From Bacteroides sp. ET71 (GTDB lineage Bacteria; Bacteroidota; Bacteroidia; Bacteroidales; Bacteroidaceae): a stretch of DNA of 59,817 bases. The notes beneath the pieces are model-generated. The model was not told where the DNA came from. It was given only the letters and a program-made list of their open reading frames with translations, and made no database searches. A program made the position numbers and the translations under genes. The first letter of the stretch is position 1, and each line of letters begins with the position of its first letter. The stretch covers positions 1 to 59,817 of the forward strand of contig NZ_JAMBLS010000022.1 in the NCBI RefSeq assembly GCF_023336905.1, written 5' to 3'. Shown here one piece after another: positions 5,525 through 59,798 of the stretch.

Positions 5525-6340
5525 ATGGAAACAAAAAACAAAAAAAAGAACGTGGGCTTCAGAGGTATTAAGTCTGCGTGGATTGTAATCGTTTGCTGCT
5601 TCATCGTAGCCGTTTTGATTTACACTCAGGTGTTGGGTAACCCTGCCAACTTTATGAACAACGACCCGAACAACCACCCGCTGCCCGGTAACTTCCTGGG
5701 AACTATCTATAAAGGTGGTGTGATCGTGCCTGTGATCCAGACTCTGTTGCTGACAGTTATCGCTTTGTCTATCGAGCGTTTCTTCGCTATCCGTGCCGCT
5801 TTCGGTCATGGCTCTTTGGCTAAGTTCGTTGCCAACATCAAGGTGGCTTTGGCTAACAACGATATGGTTCAGGCTCAGGCTCTGTGCGACAAACAACGTG
5901 GTTCTGTAGCTAATGTTGTAGGTGCAACTCTGCAGAAATATTCTGAAATGGAAAACAATACCGTGCTGTCGAAAGACCAGAAGCAATTGGCTATCCAGCA
6001 GGAATTGGAAGAAGCTACTGCATTGGAATTGCCTATGATGCAGGAAAATCTGCCTATCATTGGTACTATCACTACGCTGGGTACGTTGATGGGTCTGCTC
6101 GGTACGGTTATCGGTATGATTCGTTCATTCGCTGCCTTGGCTGCCGGTGGCTCTGCTGACTCTATGGCTCTGTCACAAGGTATTTCTGAGGCCTTGATCA
6201 ATACGGCCTTCGGTATCTTGACTGGTGCATTGGCTGTAATTGCTTATAACTACTACACGAATAAGATTGATAAACTGACATTCGCTCTCGACGAAGTAGG
6301 CTTCTCTATCGTACAGACATTTGCCGCTACGCATAAGTAA
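5525..6340 (+). CDS. exbB: ExbB/MotA-TolQ family proton channel protein
   Basis: ExbB forms the pentameric inner-membrane channel that, with ExbD, uses the proton gradient to power TonB and thereby outer-membrane TonB-dependent receptors. The product (271 residues from the ATG at 5525) has one membrane segment near the N-terminus (AWIVIVCCFIVAVLIY) and a second after a periplasmic loop (VIVPVIQTLLLTVIAL). The C-terminal MotA/TolQ domain contains GTITTLGTLMGLLGTVIGMI and a final membrane helix. An in-frame GTG at 5468 would add 19 residues; I prefer 5525 because METKNKKK is the typical short basic N-terminus. It is the first gene of a six-gene operon. Confidence 0.92.
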   Translation: METKNKKKNVGFRGIKSAWIVIVCCFIVAVLIYTQVLGNPANFMNNDPNNHPLPGNFLGTIYKGGVIVPVIQTLLLTVIALSIERFFAIRAAFGHGSLAKFVANIKVALANNDMVQAQALCDKQRGSVANVVGATLQKYSEMENNTVLSKDQKQLAIQQELEEATALELPMMQENLPIIGTITTLGTLMGLLGTVIGMIRSFAALAAGGSADSMALSQGISEALINTAFGILTGALAVIAYNYYTNKIDKLTFALDEVGFSIVQTFAATHK

Positions 6341-7732: not shown

Positions 7733-8545
7733 ATGGCAAAAATAGATTTGACCTCTCGCGAATGGTGTGACCTCATTTTTGAAGGCAGAAATAAGGAATA
7801 CGGTGCGTATAAGATGCGTGCCCGTGCACCGAGACGTTTGACGTTCTCCGTCATATTGGTTGTTGTGATTGCATTGGTTGGGTTCTCCATCCCGAAGTTG
7901 ATTACGATGGTTACTCCTGAGAAGAAGGAGGTTATGACCGAAGTAACTACACTTTCTCAGTTGGAAGAACCTGAAGTGAAACAAGAAGAAGTACAGAAAG
8001 TACAGCCTGTGGCTCCTCCTCCTCCTGCATTGAAGAGCTCCATCAAGTTTACGGCTCCTGTCATCAAGAAAGATGAGGAAGTGGCTGATGAAGATGAGAT
8101 GAAGAGCCAGGAAGAACTGACGGAAAGTAAAGTGACTATCTCTATTGCGGACGTGAAAGGTACTGACGAAGAAGGCGGCGTGGATATTGCTGACCTGAAG
8201 CAAGTGGTTACTGAAGCTCCCGTGGAAGAGGAAGTGTTTGATATGGTGGAACAAGCTCCACAGTTCCCCGGTGGTCCTGCTGAATTGATGGCTTATCTGA
8301 GCAAGAATATCCGTTATCCGGTTATTGCACAGGAAAATGGTATTTCGGGCCGTGTTATCTGTCAATTCGTCGTAGGTTCTGATGGTAGCGTGCGCGACAT
8401 TAAGGTGATGCGTGGTGTTGACCCCTCCTTGGATAAGGAAGCCGTGCGTGTGATTCAGTCCATGCCGAAGTGGATTCCGGGCCGTCAGAATGGTAAGGCA
8501 GTTTCTGTAAGATATACGTTGCCTGTAACGTTCAGATTGCAGTAA
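7733..8545 (+). CDS. tonB: Energy transducer TonB
   Basis: TonB spans the periplasm and transmits ExbBD energy to outer-membrane TonB-dependent receptors. The 270-residue protein has a cytoplasmic basic start, a membrane anchor at about residues 37-53 and an acidic and Pro-rich linker (PVAPPPPA). It ends in a C-terminal TonB domain (PQFPGGPAELMAYLSKNIRYP through YTLPVTFRLQ). The DIKVMRGVDPSLDKEAVRVI segment is the standard C-terminal signature. The cytoplasmic N-terminus contains WCDLIFEGRNKEYGAY, conserved in Bacteroidetes TonB. Position directly after exbB-exbD-exbD supports the call. Confidence 0.95.
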   Translation: MAKIDLTSREWCDLIFEGRNKEYGAYKMRARAPRRLTFSVILVVVIALVGFSIPKLITMVTPEKKEVMTEVTTLSQLEEPEVKQEEVQKVQPVAPPPPALKSSIKFTAPVIKKDEEVADEDEMKSQEELTESKVTISIADVKGTDEEGGVDIADLKQVVTEAPVEEEVFDMVEQAPQFPGGPAELMAYLSKNIRYPVIAQENGISGRVICQFVVGSDGSVRDIKVMRGVDPSLDKEAVRVIQSMPKWIPGRQNGKAVSVRYTLPVTFRLQ

Positions 8546-8554
8546 ATTAGGCGT

Positions 8555-9508
8555 ATGCATATGAAAAGAGGTAGACAGTTTGGACTTTTGTTCCTTGTGT
8601 TGGCTGTGTCGTTTGCCGCTTGCAGGCAAGCACCGAAAGACGGACGCACGGATACTTATACGTCTGGGACAGTAGCTATTGCTGCTGATGAGAGTTTTCA
8701 ACCCATAGTGGAGGAAGAAATCTTTGTCTTCGAGTCCCTTTATCCGTTGGCTGATCTTGTCCCGCACTACGTGACTGAGGTAGAGGCTGTCAACCTCTTA
8801 CTCAAAGACAGCCTGCGACTGGCCATAACCAGTCGCAGGCTGACACCTGAGGAATTGTATTCTTTCAATAGCCGTAAATTTTTCCCTCAACAGATTAAGA
8901 TCGCAACGGATGGATTGGCTTTGATTTCCAATCTGAGCAATCCGGACACTTTGATTAGTGTAAGTGCTATCCGTGATATATTGACCGGAACAAAGACCCG
9001 ATGGAAAGATATTTATCCAAACTCCCGGCTGGGTGATATCCAACTGGTGTTTGATAATAAAAATTCAAGTACGGTGCGGTTTGCCATAGATTCCATTTGT
9101 CATGGTAAAGAGCTGGCTGGTAATGTAAGTGCTTTGAAGACAAATAAGGAGGTTATTAATTTCGTAGCAAAGACGCCGGGTGCCATAGGCATTGTTGGTG
9201 TGAATTGGCTGAGCGACCGGAATGACAGCACGGGGCTTTCTTTTAATAAGGAAGTGCACGTTATGTCGGTCAGCCACTCCACACAGCCGACGGTACTGAA
9301 TAGCTTCAAGCCCTACCAGTATTATCTGTACAATGGCGACTATCCGTTGGCGCGTGACTTGTATGTGTTGGTGAATGACCCGCGTAATGGGTTGTGCTGG
9401 GGATTTTCGGGCTTCCTCACTTCTTACCGGGGGCAGTTGATTATTCAGAAATCGGGCCTGCTGCCGGCAACGCAAGCGGTGCGGGTGGTGAACGTGAAAG
9501 ATGAATGA
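8555..9508 (+). CDS. PstS-like substrate-binding lipoprotein
   Basis: A 317-residue lipoprotein. The N-terminus is basic and hydrophobic with a lipobox ending SFAAC (Cys23). The rest resembles PBP-like (PstS-type) phosphate-binding proteins, with segments such as VAIAADESFQPIVEEEIFVFE, a central LVFDNKNSST and a late GAIGIVGVNWLS. There are no pstCAB genes nearby, so it probably does not feed a phosphate ABC transporter. Its fixed place between tonB and a TPR protein suggests a role linked to TonB energisation or envelope sensing (inference). Two start codons lie six bases apart (8555, 8561); either gives the same mature protein. It begins nine bases after tonB. Confidence 0.8.
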   Translation: MHMKRGRQFGLLFLVLAVSFAACRQAPKDGRTDTYTSGTVAIAADESFQPIVEEEIFVFESLYPLADLVPHYVTEVEAVNLLLKDSLRLAITSRRLTPEELYSFNSRKFFPQQIKIATDGLALISNLSNPDTLISVSAIRDILTGTKTRWKDIYPNSRLGDIQLVFDNKNSSTVRFAIDSICHGKELAGNVSALKTNKEVINFVAKTPGAIGIVGVNWLSDRNDSTGLSFNKEVHVMSVSHSTQPTVLNSFKPYQYYLYNGDYPLARDLYVLVNDPRNGLCWGFSGFLTSYRGQLIIQKSGLLPATQAVRVVNVKDE

Positions 9509-53448: not shown

Positions 53449-54090
53449 TGGGCTCGTTTCGGGATGGGCGAGACGGCGGAGTGATGTTGAAAAATGTTTA
53501 ACTTGTATGCTGTGCAGCGCTTGTCGTGCAGTTTGGGCAAGGAACCGTATAGGGGAATGTCGTAAAATAGGGATTTGAACCGCAGATGGCGCGGATTAAA
53601 CGGGATAACCGCAGATGTGTCTGTCGCCCGGGTGTAGTCGGTGGGGGGCGTATACGGTCTTTTCATGCGTCATGTAGGTGCGGAGACTGAATTGCGGTTG
53701 TAGCAGCGGATGTGACGGTAAAGTCTTTGATTTTGCGGTTTTAGGAAATGTTAATGTTATGTATGGGTCTGCATTATTCTGAAATAGATTCTGTATCCGG
53801 CGTAAGTCCGGTTGCACGGTTGGCTGCGGACGATATAGCTTTGGTAGAGAATTTTTATGACCTTCTTTAGACATCTATAAACGATGCCACCAGGAATCGA
53901 ACTATTGATTCCTGGTGGCTGAATATCTTTGACTTATAAATCGGCAAGTAGTGTAATTTCCCGCTATTGCTCCACCGGATTGTTGCAGTGTTCTGCGTCA
54001 GGTTGCGTGGAGGTTTCCTTTATTGATTACAAATTTACAGCTTTCTTTTGAAAGTCAGGCATGTAATCATGAAAACTTCTCCGCCTTGGT
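53449..54090. other. Gene-free junction between core genes and the AT-rich block
   Basis: No credible gene. It holds a CCGCAGAT-type short repeat (about 53580-53620), a 12-13-bp hairpin at 53886-53919 (below) and a long imperfect inverted repeat GATTACA/TGTAATC at about 54025-54068. Base composition shifts here from the housekeeping style to AT-rich, so an insertion boundary is likely in this stretch. Confidence 0.5.
53886..53919. repeat. Hairpin resembling a tRNA 3' end, possible attachment site
   Basis: GCCACCAGGAATC (53886-53898) pairs with GATTCCTGGTGGC (53907-53919). Read on the minus strand, AGTTCGATTCCTGGTGGC looks like the T-loop and acceptor arm of a tRNA 3' end. No full tRNA is present. 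It sits at the edge of the accessory block and could be a recombination scar; alternatively it is simply a terminator. Confidence 0.35.
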
Positions 54091-55129
54091 TCAAAATCCT
54101 TTTTGGACTTCCCAATAGCCGCCTTTATTGGGGCCGACATGTCTGATTATCCCTTTTTCTTGGAGTGAAGCCAACCGACGCTTTACGCTGCTTTCATGTA
54201 TACCTAAGCGATTTACCATTTCTTTTCTTTGTATATAAGGATTATCTTTTATCAATTCAAGTATGGCATCTTTTTGTTTTTGTTGGTCTGTTTCTGGCCG
54301 TTTCTGGGTCGTTTCCTGGGTCGATTCTGGGTCGCTTTGGATTGTCGCTCTTTCCGGGTACTCAAACTTAAAAGTTGTCCATATACCTGAAGCATCATAA
54401 CGGAACTCCGGTGTGGAGAAACCATCATTCTTACAAGCCGTAATGATACGCTCGATGCTGCGTCCCCATGCCTCAATCTCACCTGCATGGAAGAAAGTAT
54501 TGGCAATATCCGGGTTGTAAGGCATACTTCGGTGTGAGGACAATAAGGTTTCCACCGTCCACCCTTCGGGCAACACCCCTCCGTTTATTATCTCCAACTT
54601 GTTTTCATACACGCGGATTTGGATGGGAGAAGGTTCTGCGTTGTCTTTGTTAATGCAGGCATTCAGCAACGCTTCACGTAGAGCTTCACGGGGTATGGGT
54701 AAAGTTTCTATCCGTTGGATGCCTTCGTAGGTTATGATAGCTTTCATATATTTGGTACACAACAAGTCCATTAGCTTCACAATTTGCTGGAAAAGATTAC
54801 CATGCACTTCATCCTGATATACCAAATCCATGCCTTCGCGGAAGAAACCGACCTTTACAAATGCCCCGGTCACATATTGTTCTGGGTCGGGATGGAACAA
54901 CAAAGCGGCAGCACGTTTCAGGTAACTACCCTCATAAAGCCGGAGTTTCTCCAACAAACCGTGATTGTCGTCTATCAAGTCTGTTTCCTTCATACGTCCG
55001 CTCCGTTTGGCATACTTGCGGAATAACATAAAGGATGCCACCTTGAGCATTGGCAAAGCCACAAATCCATTTCTGGTATTCGTTGTGTAAAAATTCTTTA
55101 AACTCTATGTTTTGGTATTCGGTTGGTAT
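54091..55129 (-). pseudogene. AlbA_2 / ATP-binding transcriptional regulator-like, broken
   Basis: The remaining open frame (54091-55062, 323 residues) matches the second half of proteins with an AlbA_2 DNA-binding domain, a GHKL-type ATPase and a winged helix. It has FRKYAKRSGRMKE onward, PREALREALLNACINKD, the ATPase-like INGGVLPEGW, and the C-terminal winged helix IQRKEMVNRLGIHESSVKRRL. The AlbA_2 domain is missing. Just upstream in another frame are its first 33 residues, PTEYQNIEFKEFLHNEYQKW followed by ICGFANAQGGILY, and no proper start codon (ATA at 55127). So an internal deletion, with a frame change near 55025-55040, has removed most of the domain. The gene is very likely non-functional, though the C-terminal part could still be made from 55062. 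Confidence 0.8.
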
Positions 55130-55132
55130 ATT

Positions 55133-55777
55133 TTAATCATCCAAAGTATAAGTTTCATCGTAAATATCTCTCAGGTTCTTGCCTTCAAACATCCAATAGC
55201 CTGTAGGTTGAATGGCATGAGTGGTATTGAGCATTTTTTTTGTAATTCCAGTCAATGAATAAACATCACCTTGATACATCACTTTCTTTTCATCAACTAC
55301 CGATACTTCAATAGATGAATCTTTTACGAATACTAAAATATCACCTTTCTTCATTCCCATCTCAAAATAATTGAGGGGAGGACGGCGTGACGAATTGATT
55401 TTTTCCGTAGCGGATTTATCTTCTGTAGTCAGGTCGTTGTCTATCTCTTCCGTGATTTCTTGTGTCACATCTTCTCGATTAAACAATTCCAATATCGCCA
55501 TCGCTTGCTCAGGTTTGATTTGAAAAAACTCACGGTTAGCATTGATACGGTTAGGAGCGAATGCCGTGTGCAGAGCCTTCTCAATCTTGGCACAATCTGA
55601 AGACTTCACTTTACAAGCATACTTACATTCAAAAGGAACAGGAACTCCTGTACCATAAAGTTCTTTCATTCGAGCATCCAAATTATCCCTTGTGGTCATG
55701 CCTATTTTTACCAATCCAGGCATTGCAGGATTAGTAAGAACATAAACGATTCCTGAATTATTTTGTTTTTGAGACAT
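55133..55777 (-). CDS. GIY-YIG nuclease (T5orf172 type) with RAMA-like C-terminus
   Basis: A 214-residue protein. The N-terminal GIY-YIG domain reads GIVYVLTNPAMPGLVKIGMT (VYVL and VKIG as the two strands). It continues LDARMKELYGTGVPVPFECKYAC with the catalytic Arg, an IEKALHTAF helix and NREFF with conserved Asn/Glu. This pattern is the T5orf172/Mug113 subgroup. After a Glu/Asp-rich linker, the C-terminal 90 residues (EMGMKKGDILVFVKDSSIEV to YWMFEGKNLRDIYDETY) resemble the RAMA domain found with adenine methylases and restriction enzymes. It may cut DNA in a modification-dependent way (inference). It ends directly against the AlbA_2 pseudogene. Confidence 0.8.
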   Translation of the reverse strand: MSQKQNNSGIVYVLTNPAMPGLVKIGMTTRDNLDARMKELYGTGVPVPFECKYACKVKSSDCAKIEKALHTAFAPNRINANREFFQIKPEQAMAILELFNREDVTQEITEEIDNDLTTEDKSATEKINSSRRPPLNYFEMGMKKGDILVFVKDSSIEVSVVDEKKVMYQGDVYSLTGITKKMLNTTHAIQPTGYWMFEGKNLRDIYDETYTLDD

Positions 55778-55799
55778 ATATCACTTGTTTTTAAGCATG

Positions 55800-56381
55800 T
55801 TATTGACACAAAACTGCAGTTATAATATTTGAAATAATATTAGAAGTTACATCTACACCAAAACTTTTTATTTTATCAACTAACTTCGTTTTAGCCTGAG
55901 TAGGATTAGGCTCTGTTTCTACAATCTCTTTTATTTCCTTGTATTGTTTTCCTGTTAATTCATCCTTTATTATATCCATGAACTGGTCTAAAAATTGAGA
56001 TTGTTGCTGGGATTGGGTTTGATTCACATGTACATTAACAGATTTATCTATTACATTGGAGTCTTTAATCACACTAATAATCTGGGGCATTTCCAAACAT
56101 GCCTGCAATATTGCAAGCATATTATCAAAGACAGTGGGAGAATGATGGTTTTTAGTGAAGTCTTTAGCTGATTCTTCAAAATCATTAATACACCTATCTC
56201 CAGAAAAATTTATAGAAAGGAATCTTATAGATTTGTTTTTCCATATTTCATATTTGGAATTGTCTGCTAAACTATAAGCTGCATATGTACGAAAAACCCC
56301 CGATGGAGTATTGATATATGAGATTGTTTTTCTTATATCTTTTCCTTCTTCAATGAGTTGTTCAAGAGTTATTGTTTCCAT
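55800..56381 (-). CDS. Hypothetical protein of the accessory block (193 residues)
   Basis: I do not recognise this protein. It starts with LEQLIEEGKDIRKTISYINTPSGVFRTYAAYSLADNSKYEIWKNKSIRFL, a pattern resembling small antiphage accessory proteins of the Abi type. A Gln-rich hinge (NQTQSQQQSQFLDQFMDIIKDEL) then joins an alpha-helical C-terminus with KQYKEIKEIVE and KTKLVDKIKSFGVDVTSNIIS. There is no signal peptide; a mildly hydrophobic end (IISNIITAVLCQ) might touch a membrane. The layout, an N-terminal effector-like part and a C-terminal helical oligomerisation part, is a guess. It sits between a DUF262-HNH gene and a GIY-YIG gene with gaps of about 20 bases, so it is in the same operon. Confidence 0.75.
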   Translation of the reverse strand: METITLEQLIEEGKDIRKTISYINTPSGVFRTYAAYSLADNSKYEIWKNKSIRFLSINFSGDRCINDFEESAKDFTKNHHSPTVFDNMLAILQACLEMPQIISVIKDSNVIDKSVNVHVNQTQSQQQSQFLDQFMDIIKDELTGKQYKEIKEIVETEPNPTQAKTKLVDKIKSFGVDVTSNIISNIITAVLCQ

Positions 56382-56402
56382 CTTTTGAATTTTGTTAAAA
56401 TA

Positions 56403-57512
56403 TTACTTTCCTCCTTTAACCCGATTGCAATTCTTACAAAGCATTTGGCAATTCTCCGCCACAGTCGTACCGCCTTCTTTCCAAGGCGTGATGTGGTCGG
56501 CTTCCATTTCCTCCAGTTCGAAATGCTTGCCGCAATGAACGCATATGCCGTGCTGCCGCTCGTAGGCTTCGCGTTTCTGCTTTTTGTCGAAAGTTCGGAA
56601 ACTGAGGTCGCGCAGGTCGCCGCTCAGCACGTAGCGATAAATGCCGGACTTCTTCATGATTTCATCATCCTCCATTAAGTCGTGTATCTGCTTTTCGAGG
56701 GCAACAGTATCATATACATTTTCACTAAACTCATCATACATGGCTCCCCAATCCAGACCTTTCATCTCGCGGCGGTATTTGGTAAATGTGGAACGTATCC
56801 ATGTAATGATAGATACAAAGTAAGCCCATAGCTTATTGGCATTCGGGTCAAACTGATGCAATGCCATGTATTTGTCCACGCTTTCTACGCCGTCATGACG
56901 AGCCGCCCATTTCAAGATAGTAGCCAAGTATGCCTGCTCTATGGCGTTTCCGTTCAAAAAGTCGGCTCCCATCTTATAAGCCGGACATCCGTTCTTTGAG
57001 AAATGCCTGCGCGCATCTGTTACGAAAGGTCCGGCATAGACGGCGTTCAGCAGTTCTTGGTCGAGAAGTTTCTCTCCCGCAATGTTGATTACCCGGAACC
57101 AGTTAAGCTTTTCTTTGTCTGTCCCTTCGCAAAAGTACACAGTCAGTTCATAGTTGAGAAACTTGGCTTTCTCTTCCTCTGTAAGTGTGGAGAAATAGAG
57201 TGTTCCTCGGTCGTGGTCAACGATGTTAAAATCGTGAGTGTAGAATCCGCATATTGAGAGGGTGCGCTGTTGCCCGTCAATCATTTCAAAGTTTTCGTTT
57301 TTATCTACGCTCCAATACATGATGTTGAGAGGAAAGCCTTTGAGGATGGTTTCCACAACGGCTTGCTGTTGCTTCTCATCATAGCGAAATTCACGCTGAT
57401 AAGGAGGGCGTATATCTAATTTTCCATGATAACCTTTTACTCCGGCATCGGGGTCGTTGACATATCCATCAATCAAATCACAGATTTTTATGGACTTCAA
57501 TTCTATTTGCAT
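56403..57512 (-). CDS. DUF262 and HNH endonuclease domain protein
   Basis: A 369-residue protein related to GmrSD-type and similar restriction proteins. The N-terminal DUF262 (ParB-like) domain has RPPYQREF (35-42) and the signature MIDGQQRTLS (77-86), used for nucleotide binding or hydrolysis in relatives. The C-terminus is an HNH nuclease with two CxxC zinc pairs (Cys324/Cys327 and Cys359/Cys362) and the catalytic Asp339-His340 in EADHITPW, followed by AENCQMLCKNCNR. All key residues are present, so an active nuclease is expected. It starts three bases after the dinD stop. It is the strongest candidate for the cutting enzyme of the block. Confidence 0.88.
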   Translation of the reverse strand: MQIELKSIKICDLIDGYVNDPDAGVKGYHGKLDIRPPYQREFRYDEKQQQAVVETILKGFPLNIMYWSVDKNENFEMIDGQQRTLSICGFYTHDFNIVDHDRGTLYFSTLTEEEKAKFLNYELTVYFCEGTDKEKLNWFRVINIAGEKLLDQELLNAVYAGPFVTDARRHFSKNGCPAYKMGADFLNGNAIEQAYLATILKWAARHDGVESVDKYMALHQFDPNANKLWAYFVSIITWIRSTFTKYRREMKGLDWGAMYDEFSENVYDTVALEKQIHDLMEDDEIMKKSGIYRYVLSGDLRDLSFRTFDKKQKREAYERQHGICVHCGKHFELEEMEADHITPWKEGGTTVAENCQMLCKNCNRVKGGK

Positions 57513-57515
57513 ATC

Positions 57516-58373
57516 TTACTCCTTTTCTCTTTTAGAAGTTTTCTTTGCGCTTTGCTTCTTAGTTAATGATTTTTCCTCAGACTTCAATCGCCGTTCCACC
57601 TTCTTTACATCCTCTCCTGGTGGCAACTGCTCAGGAACTATTCCACGTTGCAGCAGCATATTCCTTACGGCGGCATTGTTATCCACGTGTTCACGAGTGA
57701 TTTGTTCTTGTCCGTGCAAATCTTTCTGCTGTACATTTACCGAGGTCATTTCCGCAGCAAAATCCTTAGCTTTGATACTGATTGTCGGAAGGAAGTCTGC
57801 CAGAGGTCGATTGTCAGGAGCTCCTAACTTGCGTTTTAGCAATGCCGTATCCAGATGAAATAAAGCTTTGTCACCTTTAGAACGAATGATACCGAATCCT
57901 TTGTTATCCACTCCGCGCTCATAAAGGATACCCGATAAACGATTTTCCGTTTCTGCCAGTTTATTACGTGCCACGACACGCTCATGTTCCAGTATTCTCT
58001 TCTGCACAAGTTCTGCCCGACGTGTCTGCACCGCAAAATAGTTTTGCGCAAAGGCTACTTGCGGCTTACGCGGATCTCCATTTTGAGCAACAAGATAGCA
58101 GGCATAGCGCGTCAGCATATAGTCATTTATCTCACGTTGAGCACCTTTTGCCAATTCTATCATTTTGCTGACGTCAGCAAAATGATATGCTGTTTCTTGT
58201 CCTGCATTTTCGCATGCGATTTTGGCTTTCTCTATGATATTCTCAAAGTTACGCCATTGTGCATAGCCTAGCAAAGTAGAGAGTTCTCTTGCACTCCAGC
58301 ATTCCACACCCTCATATTCGTTTGCAATGGATTCAAACCGGCGGAACAATTCTATGATTTCTTCGGCTTTCAT
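57516..58373 (-). CDS. dinD: DNA damage-inducible protein D (DinD)
   Basis: A 285-residue DinD homologue. E. coli DinD is a LexA-controlled protein reported to inhibit RecA filaments. Segments typical of the family are [86 protein letters not shown] and the central [30 protein letters not shown]. The C-terminus is Lys/Glu-rich. Its ATG overlaps the methyltransferase stop by one base (TAATG), and the DUF262-HNH gene follows after three bases. This location within a modification operon, not an SOS regulon, is notable. A full-length product is expected. Confidence 0.9.
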
Positions 58374-59374
58374 TATTTTTTGATTTTGCGGATTACTATT
58401 CTTTCATACAATCGAGTTGGCACACCTTCTTTTTCAATATAAAATCTTGGACCACCATTCAATTTACCTAACCTTTTTTTAATCACGGACATATCAGCCA
58501 AATCAAGACTTTTTCCTAATATTTCAAATTGTTCCGGACTATATTTATCCAAGAATGTTATTGGAACTCCCATAGCACCATCATAATCCATAGGTATCTC
58601 TTCCGTTTTGTTCACATTAATAGCATCAAAATTAATGTATCGTGGATATTCTTCAGAAGTGTAGTGCTTATAAAGAATGATGTCTTCATGACGTTTTTTG
58701 ATTTCAAGATTAGTAAACCATGTAACACCAGATACCCGAATCATACCCTCCCGATGGTCACCAGCGGTAGCCTTATCCTCATAATGTGAAATAAAATGTC
58801 CTGCTCCTCCCTTAAAACCATACCCTAACCACAATTTGTTTTGCATGATTAACGGAAATATCTCTTTATAAGAAATGGCATTCTGATGTCCGATAATCAA
58901 GAACTTCTTTTCATATTCCATCAGTTGCGCCACGTATTCCCGAAACAAAGAAAACGGAGGATTAGTCACCACAATATCCGCTTCTTTGAGCAATTCGATG
59001 CATTCTTTACTGCGGAAATCTCCATCTCCTTTTAGCGGTTTTACTCCTATCTCTTCTGCATTGGGTATATGGTCTCCATTTTTATCACCTTCATAAGTCA
59101 GGTAAACGGCTTGTTCGCTCTTGTTTTGGCTGAACAAGTCTATATTTTGATTCTTATAGCAAGTGGTAATCAGTTTCTTCAATCCAAGAAATTCAAAGTT
59201 ATAGGCAAAATAGGTAAAGAAATTGCTCACACGTGGGTCATCGCAATTACATAATACAGTCTTACCGCGAAAATGTTCCCGGTAATGCCGCAACTCGTTG
59301 TTGATATCTTCCAGTTGCGTATAAAACTCGTCTTTCTTGGCTTCTTTTGCCTTGTTCAGATTCTTATTAGCCAT
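58373..59374 (-). CDS. Adenine-specific DNA methyltransferase, M.EcoRI family
   Basis: A 333-residue N6-adenine methyltransferase. It matches the recognised features of M.EcoRI closely: the N-terminal [59 protein letters not shown] followed by catalytic motif NPPF (138-141), [21 protein letters not shown] and [18 protein letters not shown]. By family it should modify the inner A of GAATTC (inference). No EcoRI-like endonuclease gene is in the window. The start follows the XRE gene by five bases, and its stop overlaps dinD. It probably marks self DNA for the nucleases encoded downstream. Confidence 0.92.
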
Positions 59375-59379
59375 ATCAT

Positions 59380-59592
59380 TTAATCGAATTTACCCTTGTT
59401 AATCAAATCTTTTGCATTCACTTCCAGAATTTCCGCTATCTTCATCAACATCTCCAATGAGGGTTGTGTTGTATTAGAACACCAACGAGAAACAGTCGCT
59501 TCGTTCTTTCCTAACTGTTCAGCCAGCCATTTTCCGGTTTTTCCCTGTTCTACCAATACTATTTTTAGCCGATTTATTTTTTCTGTTCCCAT
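59380..59592 (-). CDS. XRE-family transcriptional regulator (C-protein-like)
   Basis: A 70-residue helix-turn-helix protein: LKIVLVEQGKTGKWLAEQLGKNEATVSRWCSNTTQPSLEMLMKIAEILEVNAKDLI. It is one compact XRE domain, the size of the controller proteins of restriction-modification systems. As first gene before the methyltransferase it probably sets the expression of the operon, delaying nuclease activity until DNA is methylated (inference). A promoter is proposed at 59640-59673. Confidence 0.9.
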   Translation of the reverse strand: MGTEKINRLKIVLVEQGKTGKWLAEQLGKNEATVSRWCSNTTQPSLEMLMKIAEILEVNAKDLINKGKFD

Positions 59593-59639
59593 ATTAATAA
59601 AATGTATTGCAGACGCACTATAATAATTGATTGTATTTG

Positions 59640-59673
59640 CAAATATAATGATTGCTTAGCAAAACCATTCAAA
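59640..59673 (-). promoter_or_regulatory. Promoter of the accessory operon
   Basis: On the minus strand, TATATTTG (59640-59647) with TTTG at 59670-59673 and 22 bases between. It lies about 50 bases upstream of the XRE gene. The 225 bases from 59593 to the right edge carry no gene on either strand. Confidence 0.55.
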
Positions 59674-59798
59674 TTTCGACAATAAACTGTTCTTAATAAT
59701 TGAAATTTTGCCATTTATGTCTGAGTTGTCTGCGCAAAAAAAATCATTTTGTGGAACGGTTTGCCTCTTTTTGACCGGATGATTAAAAAAATCCTCTT

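Follow-up and report, generated by a model that had tools for sequence, protein, structure and literature searches.

A probable mobile Type II-like restriction-modification cassette with accessory slots in Bacteroides sp. ET71

Six adjacent genes near the upper end of a Bacteroides sp. ET71 contig (NZ_JAMBLS010000022.1) most likely make up a mobile cassette of Type II-like restriction-modification (R-M) with accessory slots. The whole stretch that we analysed, hereafter the window, is the entire contig of 59,817 bases. The core of the cassette is a pair: M, an EcoRI-family adenine DNA methyltransferase that would mark the host DNA, and R, a protein with a DUF262 and an HNH domain that would cut DNA lacking the mark. 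This core is a known kind of R-M and represents no new category. An earlier note, made from the sequence alone, had proposed an undescribed methylation-linked defence operon at this place, and its picture of the layout stands. The six named genes all lie on the minus strand, tightly packed, with inter-gene gaps of 5, -1, 3, 21 and 22 bases, and the DNA is AT-rich (a G+C content of 0.396 at 55133-59592, against 0.531 for the window). The interval described in that note also contains a seventh open reading frame (ORF), 54091-55062 on the minus strand, which belongs to the AlbA-like relic listed below, and 225 bases of the window lie 5' of the XRE gene. The features are as follows, in the direction of transcription.

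59640..59647, minus strand: TAnnTTTG element 5' of the XRE gene, kept in 7/7 aligned upstream regions
59380..59592, minus strand: small XRE/HTH_3 regulator, 70 amino acids (aa), possible controller (Pfam HTH_3, E = 3.3e-10)
58373..59374, minus strand: M, EcoRI-family adenine DNA methyltransferase, 333 aa (PF13651; PADLOC MTase_II)
57516..58373, minus strand: DinD homologue, 285 aa, optional passenger between M and R (PRK11525; PDC-S13)
56403..57512, minus strand: R, DUF262/GmrSD_N NTPase-type domain with C-terminal HNH, 369 aa, putative restriction enzyme (PF03235; PF01844)
55800..56381, minus strand: 193-aa protein, accessory slot (no family in Pfam or PADLOC)
55133..55777, minus strand: GIY-YIG (T5orf172) protein, accessory slot (PF10544; PDC-S57)
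54091..55131, minus strand: relic of an AlbA-like/HATPase_c_4 gene (tblastn and blastn against related locus L035)
53883..59689, no strand assigned: span with DNA homology to related cassettes (blastn; low end against locus L035, high end against locus L220)

Both members of the pair resemble known R-M proteins. M matches Pfam EcoRI_methylase (PF13651) at E = 1.8e-138 and the PADLOC model MTase_II (PDLC03297) at 5.3e-116; its NPPF motif, intact in the window copy, is kept in at least 95% of 42 sequences. R carries Pfam GmrSD_N (PF03235, 1.6e-17) and HNH (PF01844, 7.5e-14), and matches PADLOC REase_II (PDLC03418) at 1.1e-123 over residues 1-366, nearly its full length. Residues D79, G80, Q81, Q82, R83, C324, C327, D339, H340, N354, C359 and N363 are invariant in an alignment of 31 R sequences that includes four plasmid copies, so the window protein carries both the DGQQR motif and the HNH/Cys residues. 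The earlier note held that the arrangement fits no standard layout; that view is not supported: M and R match the PADLOC models for Type II methylases and nucleases and form a recurrent pair. As in the Type II systems of PADLOC-DB, both proteins match their models over most of their length and M and R are adjacent in most relatives. The cassette differs from those systems in having DinD between M and R, and in the make-up of R, which combines DUF262 with HNH where R.EcoRI, for example, has the PD-(D/E)XK fold.

The pairing of M with R is the strongest regularity in the data. We surveyed 393 genomes of the same order, with cut-offs of E <= 1e-20 for M and E <= 1e-30 for R, and found M in 51 genomes, R in 43 and both in 42. 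The 43rd genome with R (G057) has a contig that begins within an M gene, so that only its 3' end is left ahead of R (22 residues at 73% identity, E = 4e-7). Both genes were present in 47 loci, namely 46 survey loci, the window among them, and locus L220. In every one of them the two genes share a strand and M is the 5' one; in 34 no more than 30 bases separate them. Among the 13 loci with a wider gap, four contain DinD and five have 48-240 bases. By eye, a long, transposon-like insert interrupts M in L070 (1430-3736), and an IS200-like gene separates M and R in L080 (7858-8307). An ORF of 74-75 aa lies between M and R in L062 (10357-10584) and in L082 (9438-9662), where M is broken; the two small ORFs look alike by eye, and their M-R loci are distant from each other. 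Identity matrices for M and R across 42 loci were correlated (r = 0.66, with 0 of 2000 permutations as high), although shared ancestry contributes to this value.

The same pair also occurs on plasmids. A tblastn search of plasmid records with R returned 95 matches, of which 43 span 80% or more of the protein, and M was confirmed, at 50-61% identity, in all four plasmids that we opened. In an incomplete PLSDB table, a 7.5-kb plasmid of Ligilactobacillus agilis is listed with the M-R pair, a MerR-type regulator and rep only. The other three are an 8.6-kb plasmid of Enterococcus dispar, an 8.4-kb plasmid of an uncultured bacterium and a conjugative Aeromonas plasmid. On the E. dispar plasmid a predicted optrA resistance gene sits between M and R (L222:1164-3131), and thus the M-R gap also accepts inserts unrelated to defence. 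Phage records gave 254 matches to R, just 4 of which extend over at least 80% of it. The combination of a DUF262-HNH nuclease with an EcoRI-family methylase is therefore widespread, in 43/393 genomes of the order and on plasmids of several phyla. Literature searches found, among the matches listed, no publication on such a pair; the HNH R-M pair in the excerpt of PMC11473606 is a different one.

These counts bear directly on whether the genes are cargo that came together by chance where an integrated element ends. L032, which carries integrase and relaxase genes close to its related cassette, would suit such a chance cluster, as would the variable contents of the slot behind R and the decayed gene that comes after. 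However, the six-gene arrangement is not a chance cluster, because the M-R order is constant across the 47 loci and related stretches of the cassette, accessory genes included, recur in two further genomes; the seven loci whose R is most similar also have an XRE gene. Random clustering of M with R is already refuted, and we regard the broader cargo explanation as highly improbable. The earlier note had named, as grounds for giving up its proposal, a finding that only the methyltransferase and dinD are linked among otherwise random neighbours. We find instead that M and R are the linked genes, with DinD an optional addition in 4/47 loci.

The XRE gene marks a narrower group of cassettes. It was found at E <= 1e-10 together with M in 7/47 M-R loci, which are the seven with the highest-scoring R, and one further, weak match was seen in L077. 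It stands in front in the nearest relatives as well, in line with the suggestion of a controller at the head of the operon. The seven regions upstream of XRE share a promoter-like element, TAnnTTTG, which matches the Bacteroides -7 promoter consensus. The small XRE protein is a candidate for a controller of the C-protein kind, and it probably sets the timing of cassette expression.

In the Type II-like mechanism that we favour, M would methylate adenine at a specific site and so mark host DNA, and R would cut DNA without this mark, its nucleotide-dependent DUF262 domain being coupled to the HNH nuclease. DinD, whose start overlaps the stop of M by one base, is likely co-translated with M, and probably acts on RecA filaments at breaks made by R, which would leave less recombinational rescue of the cut DNA. 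If the pair is a true Type II system, a domain family familiar from defence that depends on modification would here serve the opposite purpose, the cutting of unmodified DNA.

Several observations weigh against this assignment. The AlphaFold2 model of R (pLDDT 88.5) finds as its best fold match BrxU, a modification-dependent enzyme, and not a Type II enzyme (rank 1, E = 2e-4, with TM-scores of only 0.24 and 0.17); HNH nucleases and ParB/Srx folds follow, and SspE, which senses phosphorothioate (PT) marks, appears at rank 41. M is found without R in 9 of its 51 genomes. In one of these (G333) M reaches the contig end; in the other eight the fetched locus extends 1.7-9.2 kb past M. In genome G295, M and R are on separate contigs. 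Composition supports no recognition site, and M-R loci show no special avoidance of GAATTC. Last, 33 of 43 high-scoring DinD loci have no R-M gene within 150 bases, although L176, counted among the 33, is a probable eleventh locus with one by pooled counts.

Our main doubt is accordingly whether the mark blocks or activates R, because the modelled fold relatives of R are modification-dependent. R might be licensed by the mark as SspE is, with DUF262 sensing the cassette's own methylation, hydrolysing nucleotide and activating HNH, or it might be a Type IV enzyme directed against foreign modifications, with M merely travelling along. The DUF262-nuclease folds retrieved for R are indeed BrxU and SspE, and SspE, according to an excerpt of PMC13251355, reads its own PT mark, after which GTP hydrolysis activates its nuclease. 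As described in part of PMC4619093, GmrSD/BrxU enzymes share with R a DUF262 domain with DGQQR and an HNH-superfamily nuclease. However, a Type IV enzyme would need no partner methylase, and all 43 genomes with R have M or an M end. R is also short, at 369 aa with a PF01844 HNH domain, whereas the BrxU and SspE chains have 557-580 residues; DUF1524, which PF01844 replaces here in comparison with GmrSD/BrxU, is absent among its Pfam matches at E <= 0.1. SspABCD-SspE likewise ties a DUF262-nuclease effector to DNA modification (excerpt of PMC13251355), but here the mark would be N6-methyladenine from a single methylase, and PADLOC models find no Ssp family in any of the 7 ORFs at E <= 0.1. We consider this alternative, in either form, unlikely, and cutting of unmarked DNA by R remains the reading that we prefer.

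We searched for a recognition site through avoidance of palindromes. In the window GAATTC occurs 3 times where 12.1 occurrences were expected, which places it fourth among 64 palindromes. As a site it was rejected: it is unremarkable at rank 12 in M-R loci and rank 13 in non-M-R loci, with 0.90 versus 0.78 in family-matched stretches. CATATG occurs 38 times against 133.1 expected in M-R loci and 94 times against 143.5 in other loci. GATC and CCGG show larger contrasts between the same two sets, so these differences point to plain differences of lineage. Across 20-kb stretches CATATG stood at 0.33 versus 0.62, second of 64. A whole-genome comparison of 80 genomes, 43 with R and 37 without (hand-chosen, partly from shared families), gave a weak signal: p = 0.039 on density, p = 0.37 against a reversed-pattern control, and lower values in 6/11 shared families (p = 0.17). 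The window's own genome does not avoid CATATG, with 272 sites, compared with 171 for the reversed pattern. CATATG was dropped as a candidate, the lead having failed genome-wide. One pair of congeners nevertheless differs: 68 CATATG sites occur in G388, which has R, versus 1016 in G327, which lacks it, and the reversed pattern is about equally frequent in both (1095 and 1087).

DinD's repeated presence inside R-M operons is the most interesting open point. The window protein matches NCBIfam PRK11525 over residues 2-275 of 285 (3.6e-106; 354.7 bits, cut-off 242) and the PADLOC candidate PDC-S13 at 4e-118. The DinDs inside M-R pairs do not form one clade: two changes are needed on the tree, which leaves out the short L174 sequence, and a tree holding them together is rejected (approximately unbiased test, p-AU = 3.7e-10). 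Capture of DinD between M and R is, on these sequences, best read as two events. DinD matches at E <= 1e-10 occur in 89/393 genomes, and we inspected the neighbours in 43 high-scoring loci, counting an R-M gene as adjacent when it lay within 150 bases. A same-strand gene of at least 100 aa was found within that distance upstream in 19 loci and downstream in 23; six of the 19 upstream genes were scanned only in a pooled scan. By raw count, R-M genes directly adjoin DinD in 10 of the 43 loci, and they are of several types, as judged from Pfam domains: an EcoRI-type pair (the window, L032, L043), Type I subunits or N6 methylases (L151, L167, L171, L173), Type III genes (L166, L174) and an Eco57I-type enzyme (L163). 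An N6_Mtase match about 0.7 kb before DinD in G090 was excluded from this count.

We rejected the notion that DinD lives mostly in R-M operons, as just these ten loci have an R-M gene directly adjacent; with none seen beside it at most of the others, DinD is also a general mobile gene. Housekeeping-like genes flank it at many other loci, and at five plasmid loci no R-M gene is named beside it in the incomplete PLSDB table. E. coli DinD reportedly, going by the title of a 2011 study by Uranga as it is cited, inhibits postsynaptic RecA filaments. A bolder possibility, which we hold tentatively and think has a small chance of being right, is that DinD is a recurrent partner of restriction: Type I, II, IIG and III operons would each have captured an antagonist of RecA filaments, here apparently twice in the same M-R gap, which would block the recombinational rescue of restriction breaks in invader or host. 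The DinD link offers a handle on whether R-M systems recruit a RecA modulator against rescue of cut DNA.

Our literature searches on DinD in R-M loci found one relevant paper among those consulted, PMC4996451. In its excerpted text, the Type I locus btr190I of Bibersteinia trehalosi has a DinD homologue fused to HsdS, with modification still active; that system is Type I with a fusion, whereas here DinD is free-standing between M and R. The window DinD matches positions 3-283 of the PADLOC model PDLC03083 (Specificity_I, 717 positions), as if its seed held DinD-HsdS fusions. PMC3702460 was discarded as DinD literature, since the matched passage concerned DinG. For a pneumococcal island, an excerpt of PMC10602874 reports that deleting dinD-like and regulatory genes affected transformation less than deleting the whole island, a result that neither supports nor opposes a link of DinD to restriction. 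Extra genes within R-M loci have a further precedent in Campylobacter, where, according to part of PMC4619093, the rlo genes are additional ORFs between the R-M subunits of Type I loci and one of them (RloF) carries DUF262. In those loci the DUF262 protein is the addition, whereas in the window it is the putative restriction enzyme.

Comparison with related cassettes shows that the genes around the M-R pair are exchanged in blocks. Scanning a species-genome collection with the 193-aa protein retrieved L219 and L220. L220 matches the window in XRE (94%), M (87%), DinD (96%) and R (95%), and also in residues 1-22 of the 193-aa protein. The rest of that contig is unrelated DNA, which may reflect either a genuine break or a misassembly. 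L219 starts inside R (95%), and the genes for the 193-aa protein (88%) and the GIY-YIG protein (93%) come next; homology stops at window position 55132, just beyond the GIY-YIG stop. The rest of the cassette was not found elsewhere in the L219 genome, which has only a DinD at 73%, an XRE stretch at 79% and pieces of M at 65-72%. L035 is homologous to the window at 53883-55131, 56403-57513 and 58521-59653, and lacks homology at 55132-56402 (the 193-aa/GIY-YIG block) and 57514-58520 (DinD and the adjoining 3' part of M). The cassette thus has two exchangeable places.

The surroundings point to mobility. In three relatives the genes after purN are different ones (named by eye), which argues that the cassette is an insertion. 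In L032, integrase and relaxase genes near the related cassette, on the side that is missing in the window, fit a mobilizable element. Probing the window's own genome for the far end of the element, with the gene one or two beyond purN in the three relatives, gave no match, which is by itself uninformative.

The block swaps also bear on whether the six genes work as a single, integrated defence system that requires DinD, the GIY-YIG nuclease and the 193-aa protein. Tight packing suits such a system, and so do the partial copies in other surroundings, from XRE to the start of the 193-aa gene in L220 and from R to the GIY-YIG gene in L219. In the Type I locus L167, moreover, HsdM lies 2.5 kb upstream of DinD and HsdS directly downstream; a GIY-YIG homologue (5649-6281, 68% identical to that of the window) lies between HsdM and HsdS, along with the DinD homologue (8039-8860, 57%), so that two accessory genes of the window recur in one locus. 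However, relatives with R at 93% identity lack DinD (L035) or have other genes in the slot (L035, L032), the break in L220 falls inside the 193-aa gene, and no homologue of the 193-aa or GIY-YIG protein was seen in the 55 survey loci that were fetched and have an M match (contig ends truncate many of these). A required six-gene system is therefore quite improbable. Of the earlier proposal, the methylation-linked cassette recurring elsewhere holds up, its parts being found in other surroundings; its unity as a single undescribed six-gene system is unproven, and an R-M pair with exchangeable accessories fits better.

On our best reading, the 193-aa and GIY-YIG genes make up an accessory module of their own, housed behind R in a slot whose contents can be exchanged. 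The pair recurs in one more genome (L219), and another (L220) has residues 1-22 of the 193-aa protein. As the earlier note had said, the 193-aa protein is unrecognised, and neither Pfam nor PADLOC assigns it a family. Matches at E <= 0.01 and 17-25% identity occur in 34 other genomes of the 393, at least one of which (L143) is a different protein. It is a distant member of a family of ~175-aa proteins in the same order; the family alignment omits 5 of 29 fetched matches (L120, L123, L124, L127, L143) and 5 rows without a locus. These relatives were found again in 13 of 15 fetched neighbourhoods, among neighbours that by eye are mostly housekeeping-like or unknown. The AlphaFold2 model is all-helical (pLDDT 73.5) and has no Foldseek match in PDB or BFVD at E <= 0.001. 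PDB profiles gave nothing better than E = 0.075, PHROGs gave weak matches from relatives of the protein only, and plasmids and viral contigs gave no match to it.

The GIY-YIG protein matches PF10544 (T5orf172) at 9.8e-19 and the PADLOC single-gene defence candidate PDC-S57 at 4.1e-83. The earlier label of GIY-YIG/RAMA-like is thus right in its first half; no Pfam RAMA match was found at E <= 0.1, and the C-terminal part has a weak match to PADLOC DrmMII (E = 0.0075). Behind this gene lies the AlbA-like/HATPase_c_4 relic, which has an internal deletion of ~330 bases and a change of frame there relative to an intact 472-aa gene in L035; the intact relative sits beyond the accessory slot.

The slot behind R holds other genes elsewhere, encoding proteins of 377 and 249 aa in L035, 380 and 251 aa in L034, 329 and 266 aa in L032, and 317, 150 and 343 aa, with an NA37 domain, in L033. 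It is a place to seek further defence genes. The 329-aa and 266-aa genes of L032 (L032:10448-12234) are without Pfam matches and are candidate accessory genes. A 329-aa ORF similar to that of L032 also stands after R in L031 (6697-7686).

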